64,000 bases of DNA from Gilliamella sp. Pra-s52. GTDB lineage: Bacteria > Pseudomonadota > Gammaproteobacteria > Enterobacterales > Orbaceae. The position numbers and the translations under genes were made by a program. The notes under the pieces are model-generated. The model ran no database searches, was not told the origin of the DNA, and worked only from the letters and a program-made list of their open reading frames with translations. This document shows, piece by piece, positions 11,786-23,516 of the stretch; positions within the stretch are counted from its first letter, which is position 1, and each line of letters begins with the position of its first letter. The stretch lies in the NCBI RefSeq assembly GCF_009795805.1, contig NZ_WTEY01000002.1:186001-250000 (forward strand). The letters run 5' to 3'.

Positions 11786-12367
11786 ATGAGAATCATATTA
11801 GCCTCGACTTCACCATCACGTAAAAAAGTACTTGAAAAATTAGCTATTCCTTTCGAGTGTGTGCCTCCTATATGTGATGAAACACCACTAGCAGGTGAGT
11901 CAGCTAAGCAATTGGTCGTTCGGCTAGCTAAACTTAAAGCCCAATCATTAGCTATGCAGTTTGCTGATAGTTTAATTATTGGCTCTGATCAAGTTGGTGT
12001 GTTAGACGGTAATATTGTTTGCAAACCACATACAATTGATAATGCCCGTAAACAGCTTCGACAAAGTAGTGGTAAAGCTTTCTATTTTTATACTGGGATG
12101 ACAGTAATTAATACCAAAACACAACAACAAATCACCATTTGCGAACCATTTAAAGTGACTTTTCGGCATTTAACTGATTCAGAAATTGATGCCTACATTA
12201 GCAAAGAGAAGCCACTACAATGTGCTGGTAGTTTTAAATGTGATGAACTAGGCATCACCCTATTTGATAAACTTGAAGGTGATGACATTAATTCATTAGT
12301 TGGATTACCATTATTAAAACTTAATAAAATCATGATCGAAATGGGTTGTAATCCACTTTTAATATAA
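11786..12367 (+). CDS. yceF: Maf-like nucleotide pyrophosphatase YceF (m7GTP type)
   Basis: A Maf/HAM1-fold pyrophosphatase that hydrolyses modified nucleotides, in the YceF subfamily chiefly m7GTP. The 193 residues contain ILASTSPSRKKVLEKL, the DETP motif (about 32-35), the catalytic GSDQVGVLDG (about 69-78), FYTGMTV, and QCAGSFKCDELGITLF, all close to E. coli YceF (194 aa). The QCAGSFK segment separates YceF from the dTTP/UTP-specific YhdE branch. Its usual neighbours yceD and rpmF are not here; it sits behind a GNAT gene and converges with the iron cluster 24 nt away. Confidence 0.93.
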   Translation: MRIILASTSPSRKKVLEKLAIPFECVPPICDETPLAGESAKQLVVRLAKLKAQSLAMQFADSLIIGSDQVGVLDGNIVCKPHTIDNARKQLRQSSGKAFYFYTGMTVINTKTQQQITICEPFKVTFRHLTDSEIDAYISKEKPLQCAGSFKCDELGITLFDKLEGDDINSLVGLPLLKLNKIMIEMGCNPLLI

Positions 12368-12391: not shown

Positions 12392-13057
12392 TTAGTCAAT
12401 AAATCGTCCAGCTGACATTTTCATAACTTTTTGGCTATAACGGGCAACATCATGATCATGAGTGACAATTAATAACGCTGTACCTTGTTGATGAATTTCA
12501 GACAGTAGTTGCATGATTTCAGCTGCGCTTTCTTCATCAAGATCACTGGTTGGTTCATCAGCAATAATGATTTGGGGCTTACAAATCAGTGCTCTCAATA
12601 TCGCAATACGACGCATTTCACCACCTGACATATGGGCAGGATATGTATCTTGCAGGTGGCTTATTTTGGCCTTTTCAAGCAGACTTTTTGCTTCATTTAG
12701 TGGATTTTGATTTGCTCGCTTAGTTAAATAAAAAGGCAGTCGAATATTATCAATTGCGGTTAAATTAGGCAGTAAACTGCTACCTTGAGGGATATAACCA
12801 ATATGCTGATTACGAAAGGCGGATACTTGCTGATCATTAAGCTCAAACAGATTGGTCTGATTAATGGTAATGTTACCTTGTGTTGGTGTTAATAAGCCTG
12901 CAATCATATTTAGTAAAGTGGTTTTACCACTGCCTGATTTTCCCATAATGCAAATAAAGTCATCTTTTGTCATTGAAAAACTAACATTATTCACAGCTGA
13001 AAAGATTTGCTGTCCTCTAGTGTAATCTTTACGTAGATTTTTAACATTCAGTAACAT
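12392..13057 (-). CDS. ABC transporter ATPase (LolD/MacB type), iron cluster module 2
   Basis: A 221-residue nucleotide-binding subunit. The Walker A is GKSGSGKTT (residues 39-47), followed by the Q-loop region, the signature MSGGEMRRIA, Walker B IIIADEPTSDLDE and the H-loop IVTHDHD. It belongs to the LolD/MacB/FtsE branch that partners FtsX-type permeases. Its start overlaps the stop of the upstream permease gene (TAATG), so the two are translationally coupled and form one transporter. It is the last gene of the iron cluster, and resembles but is clearly distinct from the first ATPase at 14879-15538. Function in iron uptake is inferred from context. Confidence 0.92.
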   Translation of the reverse strand: MLLNVKNLRKDYTRGQQIFSAVNNVSFSMTKDDFICIMGKSGSGKTTLLNMIAGLLTPTQGNITINQTNLFELNDQQVSAFRNQHIGYIPQGSSLLPNLTAIDNIRLPFYLTKRANQNPLNEAKSLLEKAKISHLQDTYPAHMSGGEMRRIAILRALICKPQIIIADEPTSDLDEESAAEIMQLLSEIHQQGTALLIVTHDHDVARYSQKVMKMSAGRFID

Positions 13058-14268
13058 TATTCGCCCTCTCTAAGGGTGCTATAAGTATCAAATTTAGTCA
13101 TTGATAAGGCACTATAAGAACTTGATAAAGGTCCAATAATTAGTGTAAGAATGAAAACAACAATTGCATACAACAGCGCATCAAATAGTGAAATATTCAC
13201 ACACGGTAAACCAATTGACTGGCAGATTAATAGATTAAAGGCGTAAAGTAACACAGCAGCAATCACTATGCCTGTAATTCCACCTAATGCACTAATAATT
13301 AAAGATTCACGAAGCAACATTTTAACTAAATCACGACGTGAAGCGCCTAATATTCGTAATAAGCTCATTTCACGCTTACGTTCATTTAAGCTTGAAGAAA
13401 ATATGACAAAAATCACAATAGTGGCCAAAACCCAAAAAATAGCCGATAAACTATATACAATAGTTGAAAAGCCTGTTAACCATTTTGATATATTACTTAG
13501 CATTCCTTTAGTCATAACAAAATCGATATTATAGCCAATAGCATATTTGGGCATAATTTGATTAACAATATCCTTAATTTGATAATTAGGATTGACCTTA
13601 ATAAAAATCGACGAGGCATAATCAGCAAAATGTTCAACATCCCCTTCAATTAATTTTGCATTTTTCATTAATGATTGGGCTGCTGGCATAGTCATAAAGA
13701 CAGAGGAATCAAATCCCATACCCGTGCTATCCATTTTAGCAGCTATTTTGAAAGGATGATTAAAGAACATAATTTCATCCCCGACTTGTGAATTAATTTT
13801 GGCACCCACTACTACCTGATTGTCAGTTAAAGGCTGAGTCAATTGTGATTGTAGCCATGGTTTTATGACAAAGTCACTCTGCTGTTCAAAGCCGATTAGT
13901 TGCACTTTTGTTGTACAACATCCTGCATTTAATGAGGCAATAAATAGCTGAGGTGAAATCGCATCAATCCCTTTGATATCTTTTATTTTATCAATCAAAT
14001 CAACTTTTAAATAAAAGCTACTCGGTTCACCACGCAATAGGGCAACTTCCATATTTTTTTCATAACCATAAGGTACAATAAGAATATCTGCACCTAATCG
14101 ATTAGCCATGCCTGAAATGCCAAGACTAAGGTTTTTCATCAATACACTTCCCCCAAACAACGTTGCCGAAAAAAGCATAATGATGATAATCAAACAGCAA
14201 CTTCTAAACGGTCGCCGCTGAATATTTCGCCATGCCAAATTTGCCATGGTGATCGGTTTTTCGTGCAT
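13057..14268 (-). CDS. FtsX/MacB-type ABC permease, iron cluster module 2
   Basis: A 403-residue inner-membrane protein with one N-terminal membrane helix (about 24-45), a large periplasmic MacB-PCD domain and three C-terminal helices (about 270-300, 320-350, 360-385) carrying the FtsX-domain motif ERKREMSLLRILGASRRDLV. That is the mechanotransmission-type topology rather than an importer fold. It is coupled to the ATPase that follows. The Shine-Dalgarno AGGGAAG precedes the ATG. A 12-bp hairpin lies between it and the upstream DUF4418 gene, which may set this pair apart as its own expression segment. Confidence 0.9.
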   Translation of the reverse strand: MHEKPITMANLAWRNIQRRPFRSCCLIIIIMLFSATLFGGSVLMKNLSLGISGMANRLGADILIVPYGYEKNMEVALLRGEPSSFYLKVDLIDKIKDIKGIDAISPQLFIASLNAGCCTTKVQLIGFEQQSDFVIKPWLQSQLTQPLTDNQVVVGAKINSQVGDEIMFFNHPFKIAAKMDSTGMGFDSSVFMTMPAAQSLMKNAKLIEGDVEHFADYASSIFIKVNPNYQIKDIVNQIMPKYAIGYNIDFVMTKGMLSNISKWLTGFSTIVYSLSAIFWVLATIVIFVIFSSSLNERKREMSLLRILGASRRDLVKMLLRESLIISALGGITGIVIAAVLLYAFNLLICQSIGLPCVNISLFDALLYAIVVFILTLIIGPLSSSYSALSMTKFDTYSTLREGE

Positions 14269-14298
14269 ATTGACTTCCCTGCTTGTTGGATTTAAATA

Positions 14299-14328
14299 TT
14301 ATCTTTACCTAATATCAGGTAAAGATAA
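14299..14328 (-). other. Hairpin between the DUF4418 gene and the second permease-ATPase pair
   Basis: A perfect 12-bp stem (14299-14310 with 14317-14328) and a 6-nt loop, inside the iron cluster, 26 nt after the DUF4418 stop. On the minus strand TATTTAAA follows, so termination would be partial. It may lower or separate expression of the two distal genes. Confidence 0.6.
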
Positions 14329-14354
14329 GTATGGTTTTTATTTGCTAACAAAGG

Positions 14355-14858
14355 CTATCGATTTTTTGTTTTTTTATTTAAATAATAGGTATTAACCACT
14401 GCGGCAATAAATAATAAGCCTGATAATAATACTAAGGCGGGTTTAGCACCCATATTACACCGCATCATTTCGTTAGAACAGACACCAATTAGGATCGTTG
14501 GAATTGCAGCGGCTAACAACGATATGCAAGCTGTCGCCATGCTTAATCCCATTCGAATAAAAGCCGTACGACTAATCAGTAGTAATGCACCGATGACTAT
14601 CACTAAACAACCGATCCCTATTTCGGCTCTTGCTGTCCAAAAACATTTCATAATTTTTCCTGTACTAGCATGCATATGTCCACTATGTGCAAGCTCACTA
14701 CTAGCACCGTTCATTGCACTCATACCATGGCTCATAGTGTCAACGGGTGTCACAATCGCCTCTGGCAATGGGCAAACAGGTAAGATATATAATGGAAACA
14801 AAATAATTAATACGCCAATAATAATAAAGATACTTGATGAAATAATACGGTTTTTCAT
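14355..14858 (-). CDS. DUF4418-like membrane protein of the iron cluster
   Basis: A 167-residue protein with four likely membrane helices (about 6-28, 80-100, 105-128, 138-158) and a periplasmic loop rich in His and Met (about 40-72, with MSHGMSAMNG and HSGHMHAS). The pattern fits the DUF4418 family, which has no assigned function and often accompanies ABC/FTR1 gene sets. I start at ATG 14858 because AAAGG lies 9 nt upstream; an in-frame TTG three codons earlier overlaps that site. The His/Met loop could bind copper or iron, but that is inference. It sits between the two ABC modules. Confidence 0.75.
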   Translation of the reverse strand: MKNRIISSSIFIIIGVLIILFPLYILPVCPLPEAIVTPVDTMSHGMSAMNGASSELAHSGHMHASTGKIMKCFWTARAEIGIGCLVIVIGALLLISRTAFIRMGLSMATACISLLAAAIPTILIGVCSNEMMRCNMGAKPALVLLSGLLFIAAVVNTYYLNKKTKNR

Positions 14859-14878
14859 ATACGACAACCTTTTGTTGA

Positions 14879-15538
14879 TTAGTTGTTAATTACACGCGCG
14901 ACTTTGCCGTGCTCCAGTACTACCGTGGTTTGTGCATGTTTCGACACTTCTAGTGAATGAGTAACCACAATGATTGTACTGCCTTCTTCGTGCAGTTGAT
15001 GTAGTAAGTCCATGACCATCGCTTCATTGCTTTCATCTAAATTACCCGTTGGTTCATCGGCTAAAATTAATTTTGGATAATTAATCAGTGCTCTAGCAAT
15101 ACAAACTCGCTGCTGTTCACCACCCGATAACTGCCTTGGCAAGTGCTTAGCACGAGCAGCAAGCCCAACACGTTCAAGAGCTTGCATGGCTTCTTTTTCG
15201 TCGACCATACTATGATAATACTGAGCAACCATGACATTTTCGAGTGCGGTTAAATATGATACTAAGTGAAATTGTTGAAAAATTAAGCCTATTTTGTCTC
15301 GGCGGATTTCAGTTAATTCTGGCAAAGAAAGCTGAGTAATATCTTGTCCATCAAAATAAACTGAACCAAGGGAAGGCTTATCCATACAACCAATGATATT
15401 CATCAAGGTTGTTTTACCACTACCAGATGGCCCCATAATTGATAGCCATTTACCTTCTTCAACCGCTAAATTCACTTCAGATAGTGCATGTAGTGAACCA
15501 TAAATTTTAGACACATTATTTACTTCGAGTATATTCAT
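14879..15538 (-). CDS. ABC transporter ATPase (LolD/MacB type), iron cluster module 1
   Basis: A 219-residue nucleotide-binding subunit with Walker A GPSGSGKTT (residues 36-44), Q-loop IFQQFHLVS, signature LSGGEQQRVCIARAL, Walker B LILADEPTGNLDE and H-loop VVTHS. It starts 10 nt after the stop of the second permease. With the two preceding permeases it corresponds to the Campylobacter Cj1661-Cj1663 transporter that accompanies P19 and FTR1. It probably powers the permeases to act on a periplasmic iron or redox step, which is inference. Confidence 0.93.
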   Translation of the reverse strand: MNILEVNNVSKIYGSLHALSEVNLAVEEGKWLSIMGPSGSGKTTLMNIIGCMDKPSLGSVYFDGQDITQLSLPELTEIRRDKIGLIFQQFHLVSYLTALENVMVAQYYHSMVDEKEAMQALERVGLAARAKHLPRQLSGGEQQRVCIARALINYPKLILADEPTGNLDESNEAMVMDLLHQLHEEGSTIIVVTHSLEVSKHAQTTVVLEHGKVARVINN

Positions 15539-15548
15539 ACTTTATATC

Positions 15549-16691
15549 CTATTCACCTCGCAAAACTAACGCAGGTTCGACTTCTAGTGCTCGTTTTACC
15601 GGGATTAAACACGCAATGACCGTAACTATCACAGAGATAATAACTGTGGTTGGAATCAGATAAAGCTCAATAATAATTGAACGGCCAAACACATTGGTAC
15701 TAATGATTTGTGCAAAAATAAGCCCACAAATTGCCCCAATAATGCCACCAAGGATACCTAAAACGGTCCCTTCAGCTAAAAATTCTTTGGCGATACTTTG
15801 GTTATTAGCGCCAATTGCCTTTTTAAGCCCAATTTCCTTACGGCGTTCCATGACAACTGTCATCATTGTTGTGGCCACGCAAATCATAGTTAGTACTAAT
15901 ACCACAAAAGTGACCAAATAAAGTAATGAGGACAATTTACCAAGCACCGATGTTTCAGATTTTGTCACCCATTTGATCAAATGTGGGGTTATTGTAGTGG
16001 ATTGTTGTTTGATGTTTTGAATATACTGATTTAACTCCGCTTCAGTCGCCGTAATGCTTACTTCAACCACTTCGGCTTGTTCATTTTCTTCTAATAGTTT
16101 TTCTAAATCATGTAGATCAATAAAAATAAAACCATCTTCTGCTCGTCCTGTTTTAACAATTCCGGTTATTTTTAGATCCTCATCAAAACGTGAATTTTGT
16201 TTAGATTTACCTGAAATTGGCATAGTACCACCAACGCTTAACTTAGCAAAATTAGCTATATCTGTACCAATCATTATTTCATGTGGATTTTGTGGCAATG
16301 CGCCTTCAATGTGCCAATAAGGGCTGGTTTTGGTTACTTGTTTAAAGTCAGTACCCACAATAGTATAAGGGTGCTGATTACTGCGAATCGACTCATAACG
16401 AAAAGGTGTCACGCCAAGTAATTTATCTTTTGGTAAAAAACTCACAGCTTTATTAACATCCGTCATTGCTACCGTTGGCTGATTATTAGCAGGCAACAAC
16501 AGAAGATTAGCACCATAGGAACGAAATTCTTGTCCCATTTGCCGTGGAATATCATAACAAAGTGTGATCATACCAAGAAGTACTGTTGCACCAATAGCTA
16601 CACCAAGCAAAGCAACAGCAATGCGAGACCGACGACGGATAAGTGAACTTAACACGGTTTTAATTATAAAGCGTCTATTTTTATTAATCAT
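15549..16691 (-). CDS. FtsX/MacB-type ABC permease B, iron cluster module 1
   Basis: A 380-residue inner-membrane protein with an N-terminal helix (about 20-42), a periplasmic MacB-PCD domain and three C-terminal helices. The motif ERRKEIGLKKAIGANNQSIA belongs to the FtsX domain. I start at ATG 16691 (MINKNRRF), which has AAGGAAG just upstream and leaves a 16-nt gap to the previous gene; the longer frame from 16727 would overlap that gene. It is paired with the permease at 16708-17994 and the ATPase at 14879-15538, probably as a heterodimeric transporter. Confidence 0.9.
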   Translation of the reverse strand: MINKNRRFIIKTVLSSLIRRRSRIAVALLGVAIGATVLLGMITLCYDIPRQMGQEFRSYGANLLLLPANNQPTVAMTDVNKAVSFLPKDKLLGVTPFRYESIRSNQHPYTIVGTDFKQVTKTSPYWHIEGALPQNPHEIMIGTDIANFAKLSVGGTMPISGKSKQNSRFDEDLKITGIVKTGRAEDGFIFIDLHDLEKLLEENEQAEVVEVSITATEAELNQYIQNIKQQSTTITPHLIKWVTKSETSVLGKLSSLLYLVTFVVLVLTMICVATTMMTVVMERRKEIGLKKAIGANNQSIAKEFLAEGTVLGILGGIIGAICGLIFAQIISTNVFGRSIIIELYLIPTTVIISVIVTVIACLIPVKRALEVEPALVLRGE

Positions 16692-16707
16692 GAGACTTCC
16701 TTTCACC

Positions 16708-17994
16708 TTATCGACCATGTAATACATCAGTTGGGCGTAAAAACATCATCATCCGAAGTGCAGGTAAACTACCCAAGAGTGTAATTAAAAAGACCATTAT
16801 TATGGTTAATGGAATAATCAACATTTTGGGTTCGACAAACGATCCAAATACTGTATAACCAATCACTTGAGCAAAACCAATCCCGATAAAATATCCCAAA
16901 ATTCCACCTAAAAAGGCAATAATAAATAGTTCACTAAAAATGAGCAAAGATACTGCCATATTTGTTGCGCCTAGTGCTTTTAATAAACCAATTTCGGTAC
17001 TACGCTCTATAACGTTCGCAGTCACTAAATTGGAAATTGCTAACGCCGAACAAATCAATGACAAAACGGTTAGTAATAACATTAGTAATTGTGTTTTTTG
17101 TAAAATAGAACCTTCAGATTCAGCCACTTGCATAATGGCTTTAACTCTAACATCAGGCATTAATTCTTCAAGTTGATAAGCGATCGAGCTAATATAAGCT
17201 GTGCAATACCATGTATCCCACTCTGTTCTAGATAAACTATTCGGATCCTGTGCTGCTTTGCGCGCTAATTCATTTTCGGGAGTGGTTAATGCGCTCACCT
17301 CAACACGTTCAACTAGTCCATTTTTATCGGCAAGATCTTGTGCAACAGGTAAGGAAACATAAATTTGAGCATCTTCAACGCTCCCACTATGAAAAATATT
17401 ATTTATTGTGAGCGTGAGTTTTTTATTTGTGTGCGTTGAAATAATATCTATTTTATCACCTAGTTTTAAATTCCACTGTTTTGCAACAGTTTCACCCACC
17501 ATCGCACCTTGCACATTGTCATCTGTCATGGTCTTACCATCAATGGTCCACCACGATTTCATAGCCAACATACCCGTATCAACCTGATCGCCTGTTGGAA
17601 TATTAAGATGTTTATTAAACCAAGTACCCACCACAGTAATTGGCTTATCATGAAATGTCGCTTGAGTTGTTAGGAAAGGCGCAAAATCAACAATATTATA
17701 AGCCCAAAAGATCATCTTAATTTTGACAAGTTCATCTTCTTTAATATACTGCACAGCTTGCCCACTATCATTGTTATCAAGCTGGTACATTTCATTAATG
17801 ACAGCACTACCACGAGGAACGATATTAAGATTAGCACCATAGGCTTTTAGCTCTTGATTAACTTTATCACCTACGTCAAACATTACATTTAGCATAGCAG
17901 TAGCAAGCGAAACACCTAAAGCAACGGTTAAAGCAATAAGAAAGAGTTTCTTTTTTTGGCGAACTAATACACTGAGTAACATTCTGCGAAACAT
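16708..17994 (-). CDS. FtsX/MacB-type ABC permease A, iron cluster module 1
   Basis: A 428-residue inner-membrane protein with an N-terminal helix (about 15-35), a periplasmic domain of about 260 residues and three C-terminal helices. The FtsX-domain motif ERSTEIGLLKALGATNMAVS is clear. The family member next to FTR1, P19 and DUF2318 in Campylobacter is Cj1661/Cj1662. It starts 23 nt after the DUF2318 gene. The role in iron delivery rests on neighbours only. Confidence 0.9.
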   Translation of the reverse strand: MFRRMLLSVLVRQKKKLFLIALTVALGVSLATAMLNVMFDVGDKVNQELKAYGANLNIVPRGSAVINEMYQLDNNDSGQAVQYIKEDELVKIKMIFWAYNIVDFAPFLTTQATFHDKPITVVGTWFNKHLNIPTGDQVDTGMLAMKSWWTIDGKTMTDDNVQGAMVGETVAKQWNLKLGDKIDIISTHTNKKLTLTINNIFHSGSVEDAQIYVSLPVAQDLADKNGLVERVEVSALTTPENELARKAAQDPNSLSRTEWDTWYCTAYISSIAYQLEELMPDVRVKAIMQVAESEGSILQKTQLLMLLLTVLSLICSALAISNLVTANVIERSTEIGLLKALGATNMAVSLLIFSELFIIAFLGGILGYFIGIGFAQVIGYTVFGSFVEPKMLIIPLTIIMVFLITLLGSLPALRMMMFLRPTDVLHGR

Positions 17995-18017
17995 AATCTA
18001 TTCCTTTTAATTCGCTT

Positions 18018-19268
18018 TTATTTAAAACGGCTTTTTTCTGCTTCAAGATTTGCAGGACGGATCACCATATTACCGTCAATAATTTCATACTTAAGTGGCA
18101 CAGGATTACACCCACCAGAAAACCCAATAGTTGCAATATTCATTACCACATCACACAAAATACAAACCACTTGATCACCACGTTGATAGTAACCGCTTGC
18201 ACCACAAATATCACAAGCATCAAAACCAACACCATAAGCATTTTCACTTTTTTTAATAACAATAAAACGAACCAATGTACCATCCGTGGCTTGATAGCCA
18301 TAGCGGTGTAAATTGCCGTCGTTTACTTTGTCAAGGGGAATAACAATTAAATTATCGGCATTGGGTGTTACTGGCTCAGCAGGTGTGAGCTCTACTCCTT
18401 TTTCAAAAATATAGCGAGCGCGAGTTACGGTATAAGCGGTTATCGCTGTACCAGCCATAATCATTAAAGCACATCGTCTATCGCTGCGTAATTGTGCTTT
18501 AAGTTTGCGAATTTGAGCAGGATTACTACCGATCAACGAGATTGTTTTCGATTTGACGTATAAAACAATAGCTAAAAAAAGCACAATAGCGATAAATATA
18601 AAAGTAAAAAAGTTAACATGACCAAGGATAAAAATAACCAGTTTCATCATCCATGGTTGCGATGAAATAAAACGCCTAACAATTAAAATTTGTAAAATAT
18701 TAATACTATTTTGCAGGGTAAAAATAACAATCGACAGTGAAGTAATGACAAACACAAATTGAGCTGATAATCGACCACAAGTACGATAAACAAATAACCC
18801 CGTCAACAAAACTACCAACAGAGCAATTCCATAGCCTACCCACTTAAACAAGTAATCATGATTAAAAATGGAATCCATACCAACTGCAAATTCGAATGGA
18901 TAAAGCATTAAATTAGGTAAAAACTGGGCACTTATCAAACCAATACTAAGCACAAATAGCAGTATAAAAAAGAATTTAGCTGTTCGGCTATGAGTCGATT
19001 TTTGTAAGTAAATAACAATAATAAGCGGTATAGCAATAATAACCCAAGGTATAATTACGCCTAAATCATAAAATTCACGAACAGCAAAACCTGTATTACG
19101 TTTTAAAACGGCATAGATCAATGCTGCAATAAATCCCACAATAAAACCGAATAAAATAATTTTTTTACTGTAATTAGGTATTGATTTGACAATCGTTGCA
19201 CTAAGTAGTGCCATTATCATGGCTGGAACGAAAGTGTTATCGGTAATATTGATAAGGTATTGAAGCAT
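18018..19268 (-). CDS. DUF2318 Fe-S-containing membrane protein of FTR1/P19 systems
   Basis: A 416-residue protein with about eight N-terminal membrane helices (residues 10-285) and a soluble C-terminal DUF2318 domain. That domain carries Cys352 and Cys355 (CDICG), Cys369 and Cys372 (CILCD) and Cys387 (GGCNP), the metal- or cluster-binding pattern typical of the family. Homologues accompany P19 and FTR1 in Campylobacter (Cj1660), Bordetella and Yersinia, and are thought to handle electrons or iron in the periplasm, though that is not proven. A hairpin and 101 nt separate it from the P19 gene. Confidence 0.88.
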   Translation of the reverse strand: MLQYLINITDNTFVPAMIMALLSATIVKSIPNYSKKIILFGFIVGFIAALIYAVLKRNTGFAVREFYDLGVIIPWVIIAIPLIIVIYLQKSTHSRTAKFFFILLFVLSIGLISAQFLPNLMLYPFEFAVGMDSIFNHDYLFKWVGYGIALLVVLLTGLFVYRTCGRLSAQFVFVITSLSIVIFTLQNSINILQILIVRRFISSQPWMMKLVIFILGHVNFFTFIFIAIVLFLAIVLYVKSKTISLIGSNPAQIRKLKAQLRSDRRCALMIMAGTAITAYTVTRARYIFEKGVELTPAEPVTPNADNLIVIPLDKVNDGNLHRYGYQATDGTLVRFIVIKKSENAYGVGFDACDICGASGYYQRGDQVVCILCDVVMNIATIGFSGGCNPVPLKYEIIDGNMVIRPANLEAEKSRFK

Positions 19269-19297
19269 ATTTATTGCCTAGTGATTACAAATGCTAT

Positions 19298-19318
19298 TGG
19301 TGAGCATAATGCTCACCA
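19298..19318 (-). other. Hairpin between the P19 gene and the DUF2318 gene
   Basis: A perfect 8-bp stem (TGGTGAGC with GCTCACCA) and a 5-nt loop, without a T run. Placed after the abundant periplasmic protein gene, it may stabilise the proximal mRNA or reduce read-through to the membrane genes. Confidence 0.6.
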
Positions 19319-19369
19319 CAATTGACTATTAATTATTGAAATATAATTATATTTAGTATAAAAAAACAA

Positions 19370-19933
19370 TTACCATGCACGTGGAATATAATCAAAGTCC
19401 CAAGAAACTTCAATCGGTTTAGTCCAGAAACGACCTTCTACACCTGTTTCTTTATCAACGTGTAATAAATAACCTTGTTTTTCAGGATTTTCAATAATAA
19501 AAGTCACTTTATATTTACCCGCCCCTTCTAACTTAATATTGTTACCATAATGAGGACCATCTGATGCACTCATTGGCATAAAGTTACCTTCAAGAACTTT
19601 ATCACTACCTTCTTTTTTAATTTTGTATTTAACTGTTAAGTAAGGGATAAAATCACCCACGCCATAACCTAAGTTATTACCTTCGGCTGCCGAAATATCT
19701 GCTTCAATATGCATATCTGATTTGGATGCAGGTAAGCCACCAATTCCAGCCGGTTCCATATCAACAGGTTGGAAATAAACAGCGCCAATATGTAATGGAC
19801 CAACAGTAACTTCATCACCAATAGGGAACTCTTCGAAACCTTTTTGTTCACCTGGGGCTGGTGCTGCGGCATGAGCAAATGAAGATAATGCCAGTATTGA
19901 AGCAATACTTGCTGATAAGAATAAATTTTTCAT
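19370..19933 (-). CDS. P19/Tpd-family periplasmic iron-binding protein
   Basis: A 187-residue periplasmic protein with a signal peptide (residues 1-22, cleavage near AHA). The family (Campylobacter P19, E. coli FetP, Treponema Tpd/Tp34) binds Cu and Fe through conserved Met, His, Glu and Asp residues and passes iron to the FTR1 permease. The key segments are present: VYFQPVDMEP, DMHIEADI, NFMPMSASDGPHYG and EGRFWTKP. I start at ATG 19933 because AAGGAG lies 8 nt upstream. An in-frame GTG at 19948 includes that ribosome-binding site and is unlikely. It follows FTR1 by 72 nt. Confidence 0.92.
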   Translation of the reverse strand: MKNLFLSASIASILALSSFAHAAAPAPGEQKGFEEFPIGDEVTVGPLHIGAVYFQPVDMEPAGIGGLPASKSDMHIEADISAAEGNNLGYGVGDFIPYLTVKYKIKKEGSDKVLEGNFMPMSASDGPHYGNNIKLEGAGKYKVTFIIENPEKQGYLLHVDKETGVEGRFWTKPIEVSWDFDYIPRAW

Positions 19934-20005
19934 TGAAAACTCCTTCACTTTGTTTTTAAAGACTTTTTTAATAATTATTTCTAATTATTTAATATTATGA
20001 ATTTT

Positions 20006-21208
20006 TTATAATTTGTAATTTTTATGACTACGTTCAAATGTGTAATACATAACCGAAAATACCACAACTAACACCATAATTATTTGTGGAATTAATGTTT
20101 CGAGCGTTGGATAAATACCTAAAATTTCAACAGAATGAACAAAATCAACTGGAGTAACTGAAATAATATCCGCCTCTTGTAACTCTTTCATTCCACCGCC
20201 TGCAAAAGCAATAGCCATAACATACATCAACACACTAGTACCGATAAAAAATGGCTTAATAGGTAATTTCATCGAACCAAAACGAATCACCATAAAAATT
20301 ACCGCCAAAACAATTGTTCCAACAGCGAGACCATACCAAACCTTATCCATATGATCTTGAGCATCAGCTAACATGGCTTGATAAAACAAAATTGTTTCAG
20401 CTCCTTCTCTAAAAACAGCTAAAAAAGCGGCAAAACCTAATGCAAACCGGCTTCCTGATGAAATTGCTGTTTGCACTTTGTCTTGAACATAATTTTTCCA
20501 TGTTTCGGCCTCGGCTTTAGAAAACATCCAGTTACTAATAAAAAACAAGACTATTGTCGCAAGTAACATTGCCGAACCTTCGATAATTTCTTGATTAGCA
20601 CCACTGATTTTAATTGCAGAACGCAAAGCTATTGCAGCAAGCACACTGGCAAAAACGGCAGCAAGCGAGCTCATGTAAACCACTTTCACCATTGCTATAT
20701 TTCCAGAACGGACAAGATAAGCCGAAATTGCCGCAATCACTAAAATCGCTTCTAAGCCCTCCCGAAATATAATAATAAATGAAGCAAAGAAAACACTCCA
20801 ACCACTCTCTTTTTTACCATCTAATTCATTCGCATCTTCGTGTAACATTTTTAAAATTGTATCGATTTCAACACGAACAGCTTTATTCGGAGCTCCACTG
20901 CTCATCAAACGTTTGATTTTAGCAAATTGGTATTCGGTATCGGTTCCTCGTTTTCCTGAAATATAAGACATCACCGCACGCTCTACCCCATGCTTTTCAT
21001 AAAAGCCAAAATAAGCATTATTGACTCGAGCTTTAGCACGCTCAGCATCTTTCATAAAATAGATATCATAAGCATCATTTAAAATTACATCCATTTCATC
21101 AACAATGGCGTTCCAACTTTCATATTTTTTTTCCGCCGCATAAGACGATTGAGAAAAAGCCATTAAGCTTAGAACAAGGAAAAAAACAAGTGTCAAAAAT
21201 CGTTTCAT
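20006..21208 (-). CDS. FTR1-family high-affinity iron permease
   Basis: A 400-residue inner-membrane iron permease of the FetM type. It has a signal sequence (1-24), a periplasmic helical domain (about 25-135, with an acidic/Tyr-rich segment) and about seven membrane helices. Two REXXE iron-binding motifs are present: REGLE at 149-153 and REGAE at 267-271. These are the residues that carry iron through yeast Ftr1p and bacterial EfeU. With the P19 protein it should form a P19-FTR1 (FetMP-type) uptake route. It starts 16 nt after the nitroreductase-like gene and is the second gene of the cluster. Confidence 0.93.
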   Translation of the reverse strand: MKRFLTLVFFLVLSLMAFSQSSYAAEKKYESWNAIVDEMDVILNDAYDIYFMKDAERAKARVNNAYFGFYEKHGVERAVMSYISGKRGTDTEYQFAKIKRLMSSGAPNKAVRVEIDTILKMLHEDANELDGKKESGWSVFFASFIIIFREGLEAILVIAAISAYLVRSGNIAMVKVVYMSSLAAVFASVLAAIALRSAIKISGANQEIIEGSAMLLATIVLFFISNWMFSKAEAETWKNYVQDKVQTAISSGSRFALGFAAFLAVFREGAETILFYQAMLADAQDHMDKVWYGLAVGTIVLAVIFMVIRFGSMKLPIKPFFIGTSVLMYVMAIAFAGGGMKELQEADIISVTPVDFVHSVEILGIYPTLETLIPQIIMVLVVVFSVMYYTFERSHKNYKL

Positions 21209-21224
21209 ATTCTATTATTACCTG

Positions 21225-21857
21225 TTATTTTCCTAATAAGAGCATACCAAGTGGCTTACTGCCTTCCGGTAATTGTAGCTCTTGGCTTATGACTTCGGGT
21301 TTGATGGAGTGAATATAACGGGCACTTAATTTTAACGCTGCCGCTGCTAAATAAGCATTTTGGCTCATGGCACCAACAGCAGTGTAACTAAAGTTAGTAA
21401 TCTGTTCTGGATTGATACCAGTAAATGCACTAGCGTCTGACACAAAAATCAACGAATAAGCGGCTCGTCTAGTAAAATTTTGTAAACCAATATCGGCACG
21501 TATATCTTTATTATTAATTTCTTTTAGATAATGACCTTCCCATTCATATAAAAAAGTTCCCTTTTCGCTAGCGACATAAATCCGCACATAAGGAGAATTT
21601 CCATTAGCCATGGGCACTGTCCAACCGCTTTTGCCTCGGTTTAAACCACTTGCAGCCCAAAGTACAGTTGACAGTTCATTATCAGAAACCTGACCAGCAG
21701 GAAAACCGCCTCCAGATGTTGAAGATCGTTTTTTTAAACTTTCAAATAAACTCATACCATCTTTAGTTTGCGGTGTCGGTAATGTGATATCGGCATAACA
21801 AAAAGAAAAGCAAAATAAAGATAAAATAATAATGACTTTCCGTACAAAACACGGCAT
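21225..21857 (-). CDS. Exported nitroreductase-like protein, first gene of the iron cluster
   Basis: A 210-residue protein with a signal peptide (core VIIILSLFCFSFCYA) and a nitroreductase-fold domain: SLFESLKKRSSTSGGGF resembles the FMN-binding RRSxR motif, and LSTVLWAASGLNR is the next conserved helix. That points to a flavin-binding periplasmic oxidoreductase. I start at ATG 21857, where TTAGGAAT is a suitable ribosome-binding site; the longer frame from 21911 would begin near the predicted transcription start. It is the first gene behind the Fur-box promoter. A ferric-reductase role is plausible, but inference. I do not know this gene as a standard member of FTR1/P19 clusters. Confidence 0.8.
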   Translation of the reverse strand: MPCFVRKVIIILSLFCFSFCYADITLPTPQTKDGMSLFESLKKRSSTSGGGFPAGQVSDNELSTVLWAASGLNRGKSGWTVPMANGNSPYVRIYVASEKGTFLYEWEGHYLKEINNKDIRADIGLQNFTRRAAYSLIFVSDASAFTGINPEQITNFSYTAVGAMSQNAYLAAAALKLSARYIHSIKPEVISQELQLPEGSKPLGMLLLGK

Positions 21858-21900: not shown

Positions 21901-21919
21901 GCGAATGACATTAATTATC
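21901..21919 (-). promoter_or_regulatory. Fur-box-like site 1, just downstream of the iron-cluster -10 box
   Basis: The 19 bases GCGAATGACATTAATTATC match the Fur consensus GATAATGATAATCATTATC at 14 of 19 positions by hand count. The site covers the expected transcription start, so Fe-Fur binding would block transcription of the whole cluster. Confidence 0.6.
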
Positions 21920-21920
21920 A

Positions 21921-21949
21921 ATATTAAATAATAACAAGTATCATTTCAA
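21921..21949 (-). promoter_or_regulatory. Sigma70 promoter of the iron-uptake cluster
   Basis: On the minus strand TTGAAA (21944-21949) and TAATAT (21921-21926) are separated by exactly 17 bp, a near-consensus promoter. A second Fur-like sequence (21927-21945, 12 of 19 matches) fills the spacer and a better one lies at 21901-21919. Confidence 0.72.
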
Positions 21950-22073: not shown

Positions 22074-23516
22074 ATGCCATTATCGACACTGGTTGTTTTA
22101 CCACTTTTTATTATTACCATTGTTTTTGCTTCGCTTTTTAAACAAAAAAAGTGGCAGCTTTTAAGTATAACGTTATTCACGATATTTATCGTCATGGAGC
22201 TCACCTCCATCTACTTTAGTGGTGGATTTATTGATTACCAGTTTTATGTCAATTTAAATATCAATGACATTATAGAAGGCCTATTTATTTTTAAATTACA
22301 AGCGCTCTTAGTTATTGTCGTCTTTTTTACACTTATTTTTTTGCTATCAAAACTAGCAAATTGGTGCAAACGTAAATGTCATTTCATTGTTCGTTTATTA
22401 TTAGCCGTTGTAGCAATCATCTCAATTAGTTATCACAATGGACCATTAAGCCGTTTATACGAAATATATCAAGTCACTAGTGCCCCACGAGAACCATTTG
22501 AGCAAGCACTAAAATCACTCAACATGACTAACTACACTAATAAAAATCAGCTTGTTAGTCATCAAGGTAAAAATATTATTGTGTTATCGTTAGAATCGTT
22601 TGAACAAGGATTTTTAGATTTTAAAGATATAACGCCCAATTTACAAACGCTTAGCCAAGACTATACTTTTTTCGCTAATATGCCAATGAGCCCTGGTAGT
22701 AGCTGGACTACCGCATCAATGTACACCTATATGACTGGCATGCCTTTTTTAATTGGAGGCTACACAACATCACCATTAATGCGTGCAAACGAAACAAACC
22801 TCGTTAGTTTGGGGGATGTACTAAAAAAAGCCGGCTACCAAACTCGTTATGTAATAGCAGGACCTGATTTTGCAGGCATTGGGCATACAGTGGATATGCT
22901 AGGTATACAAGTCATTTCAGAAAAAAACTACGTTGGGCAATATCCATCTGCACCATTTGGATTATATGACAAAGATATTTTTGACATAGCGAAAAAACAA
23001 ATTACGCAAATGCGTCAAAACAACCAACCTTTTGCCTTGTTTGTGTCAACAATTTCAACCCATGCACCAAATGGATTTGATGATGAAAGAATGAAAACAA
23101 TTATTTCGCCTAAATCTGATAATATGTCGTTTGTTGCTGCGTCTTTGGATCATAATTTAGGAATTTTTATCAAAAGTTTAAAAGATGAAGGATTATTGGA
23201 AAACACCGTATTTTATATTTTTCCAGATCATTTAATGATGGGGTCAGGCACACCGACGATCAATCGCCTGTCACAAAAAGAGCGCAAACTCTACTTATTA
23301 ACGAATGCTAATACTCAGGATCTACAAAAAACACCTGATCAAACTATTTACCAAATTGATTTGCCTCGTTTGATTTTAAATGGTGCAAAAGTGCAAAGTA
23401 ATGCCAAGTTTTTGACAGACTATTTAACCGAGCCTAATTTTGATAAAAAACACTTTATTGAGCAAAACAAAGCCAATATTGCAACAATCAATAATTCAGC
23501 ACAAATATACAAATAG
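22074..23516 (+). CDS. LtaS/OpgB-like membrane phosphotransferase (sulfatase fold)
   Basis: A 480-residue inner-membrane protein with about four N-terminal helices (residues 5-23, 28-48, 72-92, 106-120) and a periplasmic alkaline-phosphatase-superfamily domain from about 165. Metal-site and nucleophile motifs are visible: LSLESFEQ (Glu174), SSWTTAS (209-215, Thr nucleophile candidate), STHAPNGF and FPDHLMM (Asp/His ligands). The family includes LTA synthase and OpgB, which move phosphoglycerol, and related phosphoethanolamine transferases. It is not a close match to E. coli OpgB, so the acceptor (periplasmic glucan or lipid A) is open. No strong Shine-Dalgarno is seen. A LysE-type exporter gene follows after 9 nt. 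Confidence 0.82.
   Translation: MPLSTLVVLPLFIITIVFASLFKQKKWQLLSITLFTIFIVMELTSIYFSGGFIDYQFYVNLNINDIIEGLFIFKLQALLVIVVFFTLIFLLSKLANWCKRKCHFIVRLLLAVVAIISISYHNGPLSRLYEIYQVTSAPREPFEQALKSLNMTNYTNKNQLVSHQGKNIIVLSLESFEQGFLDFKDITPNLQTLSQDYTFFANMPMSPGSSWTTASMYTYMTGMPFLIGGYTTSPLMRANETNLVSLGDVLKKAGYQTRYVIAGPDFAGIGHTVDMLGIQVISEKNYVGQYPSAPFGLYDKDIFDIAKKQITQMRQNNQPFALFVSTISTHAPNGFDDERMKTIISPKSDNMSFVAASLDHNLGIFIKSLKDEGLLENTVFYIFPDHLMMGSGTPTINRLSQKERKLYLLTNANTQDLQKTPDQTIYQIDLPRLILNGAKVQSNAKFLTDYLTEPNFDKKHFIEQNKANIATINNSAQIYK

Follow-up and report, generated by a model that had tools for sequence, protein, structure and literature searches.

Within the window analysed here, a contiguous stretch of 64,000 nucleotides from Gilliamella sp. 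Pra-s52, ten open reading frames (ORFs) follow one another on the minus strand throughout between positions 12392 and 21911 of the ORF list. Gilliamella is a bee-gut symbiont genus of the Orbaceae, a family of the order Enterobacterales in GTDB, and is not known as a human pathogen. Genes two to seven of the cluster are FetM, FetP, FetA, FetB, FetC and FetD of the already known FetMP-FetABCD (P19-FTR1) system. They are headed by a gene for an exported nitroreductase-fold protein, here called NTR, and are followed by genes for a DUF4418 membrane protein, a further permease (PermX) and a further ABC ATPase (AtpX), which together constitute a separate recurrent module. The ten-gene cluster proposed in an earlier note on this DNA is real, as ten minus-strand ORFs with matching Pfam families are present.

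Gene content and probable operon structure

The lead gene encodes NTR (21225..21857; PF00881, E 9.3e-13), a protein of 210 amino acids when read from the ATG at 21857. Its longest ORF starts at 21911. Two observations make 21857, the start adopted in the earlier note, the most likely one: 13 of the 20 named loci have no similarity to this ORF ahead of residue 15-19, and a Fur-like box extends over the upstream ATG. There follow FetM, an FTR1 iron permease of the short type (20006..21208; PF03239, E 6.2e-33), the P19 periplasmic iron-binding protein FetP (19370..19948; PF10634, E 2.3e-64), FetA, a membrane protein with a C-terminal DUF2318/FtrD-like domain (18018..19268; PF10080, E 1.4e-32), the FtsX/MacB-type permeases FetB (16708..17994) and FetC (15549..16727), both with PF02687 and PF12704, and the ABC ATPase FetD (14879..15538; PF00005, E 4.2e-35). 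At the distal end lie the genes for the DUF4418 membrane protein, with likely four helices and two C...MxC loops (14355..14867; PF14387, E 1.2e-26; the start is more likely the ATG at 14858), for PermX, again of the FtsX/MacB type (13057..14268; PF02687, PF12704), and for AtpX (12392..13057; PF00005, E 1.5e-35). The second permease-ATPase pair that the earlier note had described is thus present, and its assignment of the permeases to the MacB/FtsX type is confirmed: all three carry FtsX and MacB_PCD in the Pfam scan and, together with the two ATPases, show the composition of MacB/FtsX-type (type VII) ABC systems.

The core is recognized by its content and by its order, as FTR1, P19, a DUF2318 protein, two FtsX permeases and an ATPase occur in the sequence required of a Fet cluster. 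We read 23 Orbaceae loci in full: the window, 20 named loci from Gilliamella and two from a second genus. Each of them retains the signature motifs of the core, with RExxE twice in FetM and the pattern CxxC-x13-CxxC-x14-C in FetA, and each has the Walker A and SGGE motifs in FetD as well as in AtpX. FetP matches solved P19 proteins, with 3nrp and 3lzl among its PDB sequence matches; we take these to be the P19 proteins of E. coli and C. jejuni. FetM comprises 395-403 amino acids in all 23 Orbaceae loci, whereas in the order's other families it comprises 627-659 in all 18 loci.

Two Fur-like boxes on the minus strand precede the lead gene, so that the cluster is likely to form a single iron-regulated operon. 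The first, TGATAATTAATGTCA (21906..21920), starts 63 bases upstream of the lead ATG and agrees with 12 of the 14 fixed positions of TGATAATNATTATCA; the second, TGATACTTGTTATTA (21929..21943), begins 86 bases before the ATG and agrees with 11 of the 14. In 19 of the 23 loci (L034, L035, L051 and L068 excepted), the 200 bases upstream contain a 15-mer that agrees with at least 12 of the 14 positions; among random 200-base stretches of the same loci this was true of 38 in 2000. Gaps, taken as the distance between a stop codon and the point where the next similarity begins, are operon-like in all 23 loci and are widest before FetP, FetA and PermX. They amount to 10-24 bases between the lead gene and the FTR1 gene and to -1 to 2 bases between PermX and AtpX; the gap ahead of the second module varies between 16 and 207 bases. 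The lead gene behaves as a member of the operon, as the earlier note had held: it keeps its short distance from fetM in every locus and is present together with FetA and DUF4418.

An inverted repeat at 14299-14328 was considered as a terminator hairpin that would split the operon and was rejected; it is listed on the plus strand only and has no T-run on the operon strand. By eye, a similar repeat occurs in two of six other Gilliamella gaps (L033, L034) and is absent from four. The cluster is bordered by plus-strand genes at 11786-12367 and at 22074-23516; by their sequence, the former is presumably a Maf-type gene and the latter a sulfatase-like gene. No tRNA was found within the 64-kb window, and a megablast comparison with phage records, made to assess a phage origin, gave no match.

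Distribution and origin

Our FetA search yielded 21 named loci, 20 of which belong to Gilliamella, with identities of 72-94%. The ten genes keep their order and strand in all 20 of these Gilliamella loci, in the window and in both loci of the second genus, where the cluster occupies another site between different neighbours (2/2 loci). This second genus is probably Frischella, a genus that a previous survey lists among the carriers of Fet clusters (PMC6083913). FetA, DUF4418 and full-length NTR each occur in 31 of 44 Orbaceae genomes, and these are the same 31; the three lie on one contig in each of them, with 6.8-7.2 kb between NTR and DUF4418. The remaining 13 genomes, two of which (G033, G035) are incomplete, lack all three as full genes; the three other Orbaceae genera lack the unit in all seven of their genomes. 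No Orbaceae genome separates the three genes (31 with, 13 without, n=44), and the co-occurrence on which the earlier note had made its proposal depend therefore holds. Within the Orbaceae, the sequences showed neither of the findings that this note had named as refuting its proposal. In one genome, G008, a scar (L093, contig C27, 8092-8738) retains a 37-residue NTR remnant (residues 13-50), directly followed by PermX residues 41-98 and AtpX residues 108-221. Because these remnants abut between intact flanking genes, G008 once had the unit and lost it by deletion.

The Fet genes of the Orbaceae resemble those of Fusobacterium (FetB 51%, FetC 47%, FetD 72% identity) more than those of the 18 other loci from the order, for which the identities are 34-39%, 26-31% and 50-56%, respectively. 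FetM is the exception, with 38% identity to Fusobacterium and 35-41% to the order; it is short in both Orbaceae and Fusobacterium. Our genome searches covered the phylum of the window and a second phylum, reached via a Dehalococcoidia genome, which we take to be the Chloroflexota; the named Fusobacterium came from a plasmid record. The trees, with midpoint roots and long branches flagged in both, contained five of the 20 named Gilliamella rows each, and two of two Chloroflexota rows for FetB and two of six for FetD. In these trees, the Orbaceae, Fusobacterium and the Chloroflexota locus L097 stand apart from the 18 loci (support 98/91 for FetB, 95/85 for FetD). Orbaceae and Fusobacterium alone are joined with 100/99 in the FetB tree and with only 92/68 in the FetD tree, and another Chloroflexota locus, L095, falls on the other side in the FetB tree and on the Orbaceae side in the FetD tree. 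A horizontal gain by an Orbaceae ancestor would be the simplest reading of these comparisons.

The lead protein NTR and the DUF4418-PermX-AtpX module

NTR scores 49.1 bits against PF00881 (cut-off 23.5) and begins, as judged by eye, with a sec-type signal ending in ..CYA-D; against the SagB family peptide dehydrogenase model TIGR03605 it reaches 33.2 bits, below the cut-off of 78.4. Its PDB profile matches are the nitroreductases 3hoi (BF3017), 8cqs (BT_0217) and 3hj9, two of which are titled FMN-dependent, and a fold search with the NTR model (pLDDT 72.4) ranks the same three first, with 27-30% identity in the structural match. Relatives of NTR matched in 27 plasmid records; five of these, 29-32% identical to NTR, were examined, and no annotated iron-uptake (Fet) gene was found within 5 kb of them. 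All five relatives, which belong to the group of 3hoi, 8cqs and 3hj9, possess the loop R-x-(S/T)-x-R and the motif T-A-P-S, and their C-terminal tail is GY or GH. The Orbaceae NTR differs from them in the RxSxR loop, in the T-P-S motif and in the C-terminal tail, the three places that hold FMN in E. coli NfsB. Judged from the alignments, the flavin site is remodelled across the whole Orbaceae branch, and for this reason the function of NTR may have changed. The absence of ApbE as an explanation for a non-covalent flavoprotein was discarded, as the genome has one ApbE.

The earlier note was right about an exported nitroreductase-fold lead protein; its term flavin oxidoreductase is unproven, given the three altered FMN segments. 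A redox partner in Fet clusters is an already published idea: a redox role has been suggested for the thioredoxin that such clusters encode in most Proteobacteria and for the FMN-binding protein that they encode in Gram-positives (PMC6083913, PMC8238504), and either of the two thioredoxins of C. jejuni is reported to be enough (PMC10783030). A FetE-like thioredoxin directly follows FetD in 16 of the 18 Fet loci of the order's other families (not in L104 and L105), and within six ORFs of FetB in those 18 loci neither NTR, DUF4418 nor PermX was found at 45 bits or more. Fusobacterium has an FMN_bind protein in the partner slot. Such partners are common but not universal in Fet clusters; among the ten genes of the window, Pfam found neither thioredoxin nor FMN_bind, and NTR is the only candidate for this slot within the cluster. 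The complete periplasmic electron path envisaged in the earlier note is thus supported in part: NTR is a candidate partner, and no electron donor to NTR was found.

Thioredoxin and FMN_bind both lie downstream of FetD in one Fet locus (L114, 4882-6603). An ORF of about 100 amino acids with a CxxCHG heme motif, recognized by eye, comes after thioredoxin or FetD in 13 of the 18 loci of the order's other families (L070, L071, L101-L109, L111, L112), and the L070 copy is a cytochrome c by Pfam. In two other genomes of the order, the Fet core is followed by another kind of FtsX-type permease as part of a second ABC-type unit (L110, 3315-5874; L113, 14829-16603), which includes a NosL-domain protein in L110 and an ATPase in L113, where the permease falls just below the FtsX cut-off. 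Beside FetM-FetP of Fusobacterium vincentii (L121, 9640-10155), a short nitroreductase-like ORF, noted by eye and with no obvious signal, lies on the opposite strand; it is probably unrelated to NTR.

The DUF4418 protein reaches 93.8 bits against PF14387 (cut-off 27), and a low-confidence model (pLDDT 50.3, pTM 0.31) gives it four helices. In an alignment of 17 rows, 11 of them from Orbaceae, three Cys residues and one Met never vary, and another Met is present in 16 rows; the Cys of the first loop is found by eye in every row, shifted in four. The family named in the earlier note is correct, and the His/Met-rich character attributed to the protein comes down to a length-variable insert, the best-conserved polar residues being Cys and Met. 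Its two halves align as profiles with C...MxC placed on C...MxC (hhalign score 39.2, P 2.5e-07), compared with scores of at most 15.2 for control half-alignments in 48 stretches of FetM, FetB and FetC. The protein is, to judge from these profiles, an internally duplicated two-helix unit with one C...MxC loop per half. A single 67-residue unit found in Treponema fits the second half better (50.9) than the first (29.1). Positive charges, as seen by eye, mark both termini and the segment linking helices 2 and 3, which would place both Cys loops outside by the positive-inside rule. The arrangement of helices and loops resembles that of DsbB; a relation to DsbB was not found, and there was no PDB sequence match at E <=1. 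DUF4418 is, by its Pfam name, a domain of unknown function, and the term occurs in a single paper of the open-licence literature that we searched.

PermX forms a family distinct from FetB and FetC, and its nearest relatives are permeases that adjoin DUF4418 elsewhere: it is 36% identical to that of Fusobacterium, the nearest found outside the Orbaceae, 30% to that of Treponema and 26-30% to those of Chloroflexota. In F. vincentii (L089), FetABCD, FMN_bind, DUF4418, PermX and AtpX are joined, and the same record carries FetM-FetP (L121) at a distance of about 0.84 Mb. In the Chloroflexota genome G452, the module has as neighbours, on the other strand, genes resembling those for FetD, a permease, FetA and FetM, and AtpX is about 1.4 kb from the FetD-like gene. 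DUF4418 occurred in one of 398 sampled genomes of the window's phylum, the window's own, and in six of 201 Chloroflexota genomes; at two Chloroflexota loci (L087, L088) neither PermX nor AtpX accompanied it in the stretch taken. DUF2318 was detected in 13 of the 201 genomes, in 12 of them above the cut-off. It is present in three of the six DUF4418-bearing genomes vs 10 of the 195 others (Fisher one-sided P 0.004, a value that ignores kinship). On a Treponema saccharophilum plasmid (L090, 9151-11221), PermX, AtpX and the single-unit DUF4418 protein lie amid cysteine synthase and substrate-binding ABC genes, surroundings that hint at sulfur rather than iron there.

Probable role in iron uptake, rival explanations and known Fet systems

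On balance, we consider it probable that the ten genes form one iron-regulated, high-affinity uptake operon of the FetMP-FetABCD kind with two additions, NTR and DUF4418-PermX-AtpX. FetP would bind periplasmic iron and pass it to the FTR1 permease FetM, and the DUF2318 cysteines of FetA would act with the FetBCD ABC unit to maintain the proper redox state for this handover, as proposed for C. jejuni. NTR would stand in for the missing thioredoxin or FMN_bind protein as the outside redox partner, and DUF4418-PermX-AtpX would serve as a second ATP-driven envelope unit in the same uptake path, handling thiols or a metal at its two symmetric, periplasm-facing C...MxC loops. A bolder proposal would hold that the Fet machine accepts interchangeable outside redox partners of unrelated folds, of which the Orbaceae NTR with its remodelled site is the third, and that DUF4418-PermX-AtpX is an ATP-gated thiol or metal relay in which ATP-powered work at a periplasmic face drives a duplicated, pseudo-symmetric membrane site of four Cys and two Met; we think it unlikely in this full form. 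To our knowledge, a relay of this kind has not been described.

Several observations weigh against an uptake operon extended in this way. Fur-like patterns with up to three mismatches number 34 in the window, about 2.5 times the 13.8 expected from shuffles, and the 23 upstream regions are related and not independent; a Fur-like match alone is therefore weak evidence here. NTR was encountered at none of the 27 Fet-type loci outside the Orbaceae, some of which are ended by contig ends. In addition, all 20 Orbaceae NTR rows have a two-residue insertion in the RxSxR loop, which becomes R-x-S-T-(P/S)-G, and carry T-(V/I)-P-(M/I/T) in place of the T-P-S motif, and the tail is shorter, the rows that reach the end stopping at about LGK. 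These changes, along with model confidence below pLDDT 50 at residues 40-49, the region of the RxSxR loop, would suit a protein that keeps the nitroreductase fold, holds little or no flavin and acts as a structural or ligand-binding periplasmic partner, for instance for a chelator or heme. We regard this as rather improbable in view of the invariant R44, the nearly invariant S46 and the SQN segment kept in five Orbaceae rows and five relatives, and of the FMN-dependent titles of two of the three nearest structures. NTR might also be a co-regulated detoxification enzyme for nitro compounds, quinones or oxidative stress that stands outside the uptake machine; one relative on a Bacteroides plasmid indeed adjoins genes annotated as a transcriptional repressor, NADH peroxidase and thioredoxin. 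However, NTR is exported (by eye), no full copy was found apart from FetA in the 44 Orbaceae genomes, and its gene immediately precedes fetM in all 23 loci, which makes this explanation quite implausible.

The second module also stands without Fet genes nearby on the Treponema plasmid and at the Chloroflexota loci L083-L086 (the L084 ATPase scores nearest FetD), and for this reason its function may be separate from uptake. The statistical link between DUF4418 and DUF2318 in Chloroflexota comes from three genomes, two of which have a short, weakly scoring DUF2318 away from the module. DUF4418-PermX-AtpX could then be an independent export or stress module for copper, another metal or thiols that shares only the iron-regulated transcript, as would befit its place at the end of the operon after a gap of variable length. 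Yet it is joined to Fet genes at different sites in two Orbaceae genera and in Fusobacterium, lies close to a FetD-like gene in one Chloroflexota genome, never occurs as DUF4418 without FetA in the 44 Orbaceae genomes, and within Chloroflexota the genomes with DUF4418 are enriched in DUF2318. We therefore deem independence a doubtful, if serious, alternative to a common uptake path.

As far as the open-licence literature searched is concerned, the following are new: a lead gene whose product is a candidate partner of a third type, the remodelling of its flavin site, the all-or-none occurrence of the cluster in the Orbaceae, the recurrence of the second module as a unit of its own, and the repeat within DUF4418. 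Searches of this literature for exported or periplasmic nitroreductases turned up only plant nitroreductases, and those for FTR1 iron uptake in Gilliamella only work on Snodgrassella; the word nitroreductase is absent from PMC6083913. The task of the two FtsX-type permeases and of DUF2318 in FTR1-P19 uptake is described as unsettled in the literature (PMC10783030).

The nearest joined arrangement that we found, that of F. vincentii, has FMN_bind and no NTR in its cluster, whereas the ten genes of the window include NTR and no FMN_bind. FtsX-type permease pairs, an ATPase, an eight-helix membrane protein and an FTR1 permease are described both for bfeUO-sifABCDE of B. breve (PMC5449479) and for P19/FMN_bind clusters (PMC8238504); we read the eight-helix protein, the permease pair and the ATPase as FetABCD. 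The outside flavoprotein is FMN_bind in those clusters; in the window's cluster, the only candidate for this part is of the nitroreductase fold and is placed first, and the B. breve nitroreductase Bbr_1850 is encoded outside its cluster (PMC5449479). The C. jejuni cluster fetMP-fetABCDEF (CJJ81176_1649-1656; Cj1658-Cj1663 type) has the six core genes in the identical order, the same CxxC-x13-CxxC-x14-C pattern in the DUF2318 domain of FetA, and a Fur box upstream where Fur-like boxes are found here (PMC6083913, PMC10783030). It differs in its thioredoxins FetE and FetF, in lacking the lead NTR and DUF4418-PermX-AtpX, and in the YHS domain that Pfam did not detect in the window's FetA at E 0.001. 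The equation of the core with the Campylobacter type, made in the earlier note, is thus right as to content and order and needs qualifying for the short FetM and for the absence of fetE and fetF from the cluster. The mutant phenotypes reported for this core in C. jejuni (PMC10783030), and for the sifABCDE genes of B. breve (PMC5449479), speak for the uptake role proposed here. The Orbaceae cluster, with no thioredoxins, another candidate partner and a second engine of the same type, is a natural variant that allows a direct comparison: the parts common to all Fet versions are likely essential, the swapped part is likely the redox input, and the duplicated C...MxC unit offers a concrete target for DUF4418.

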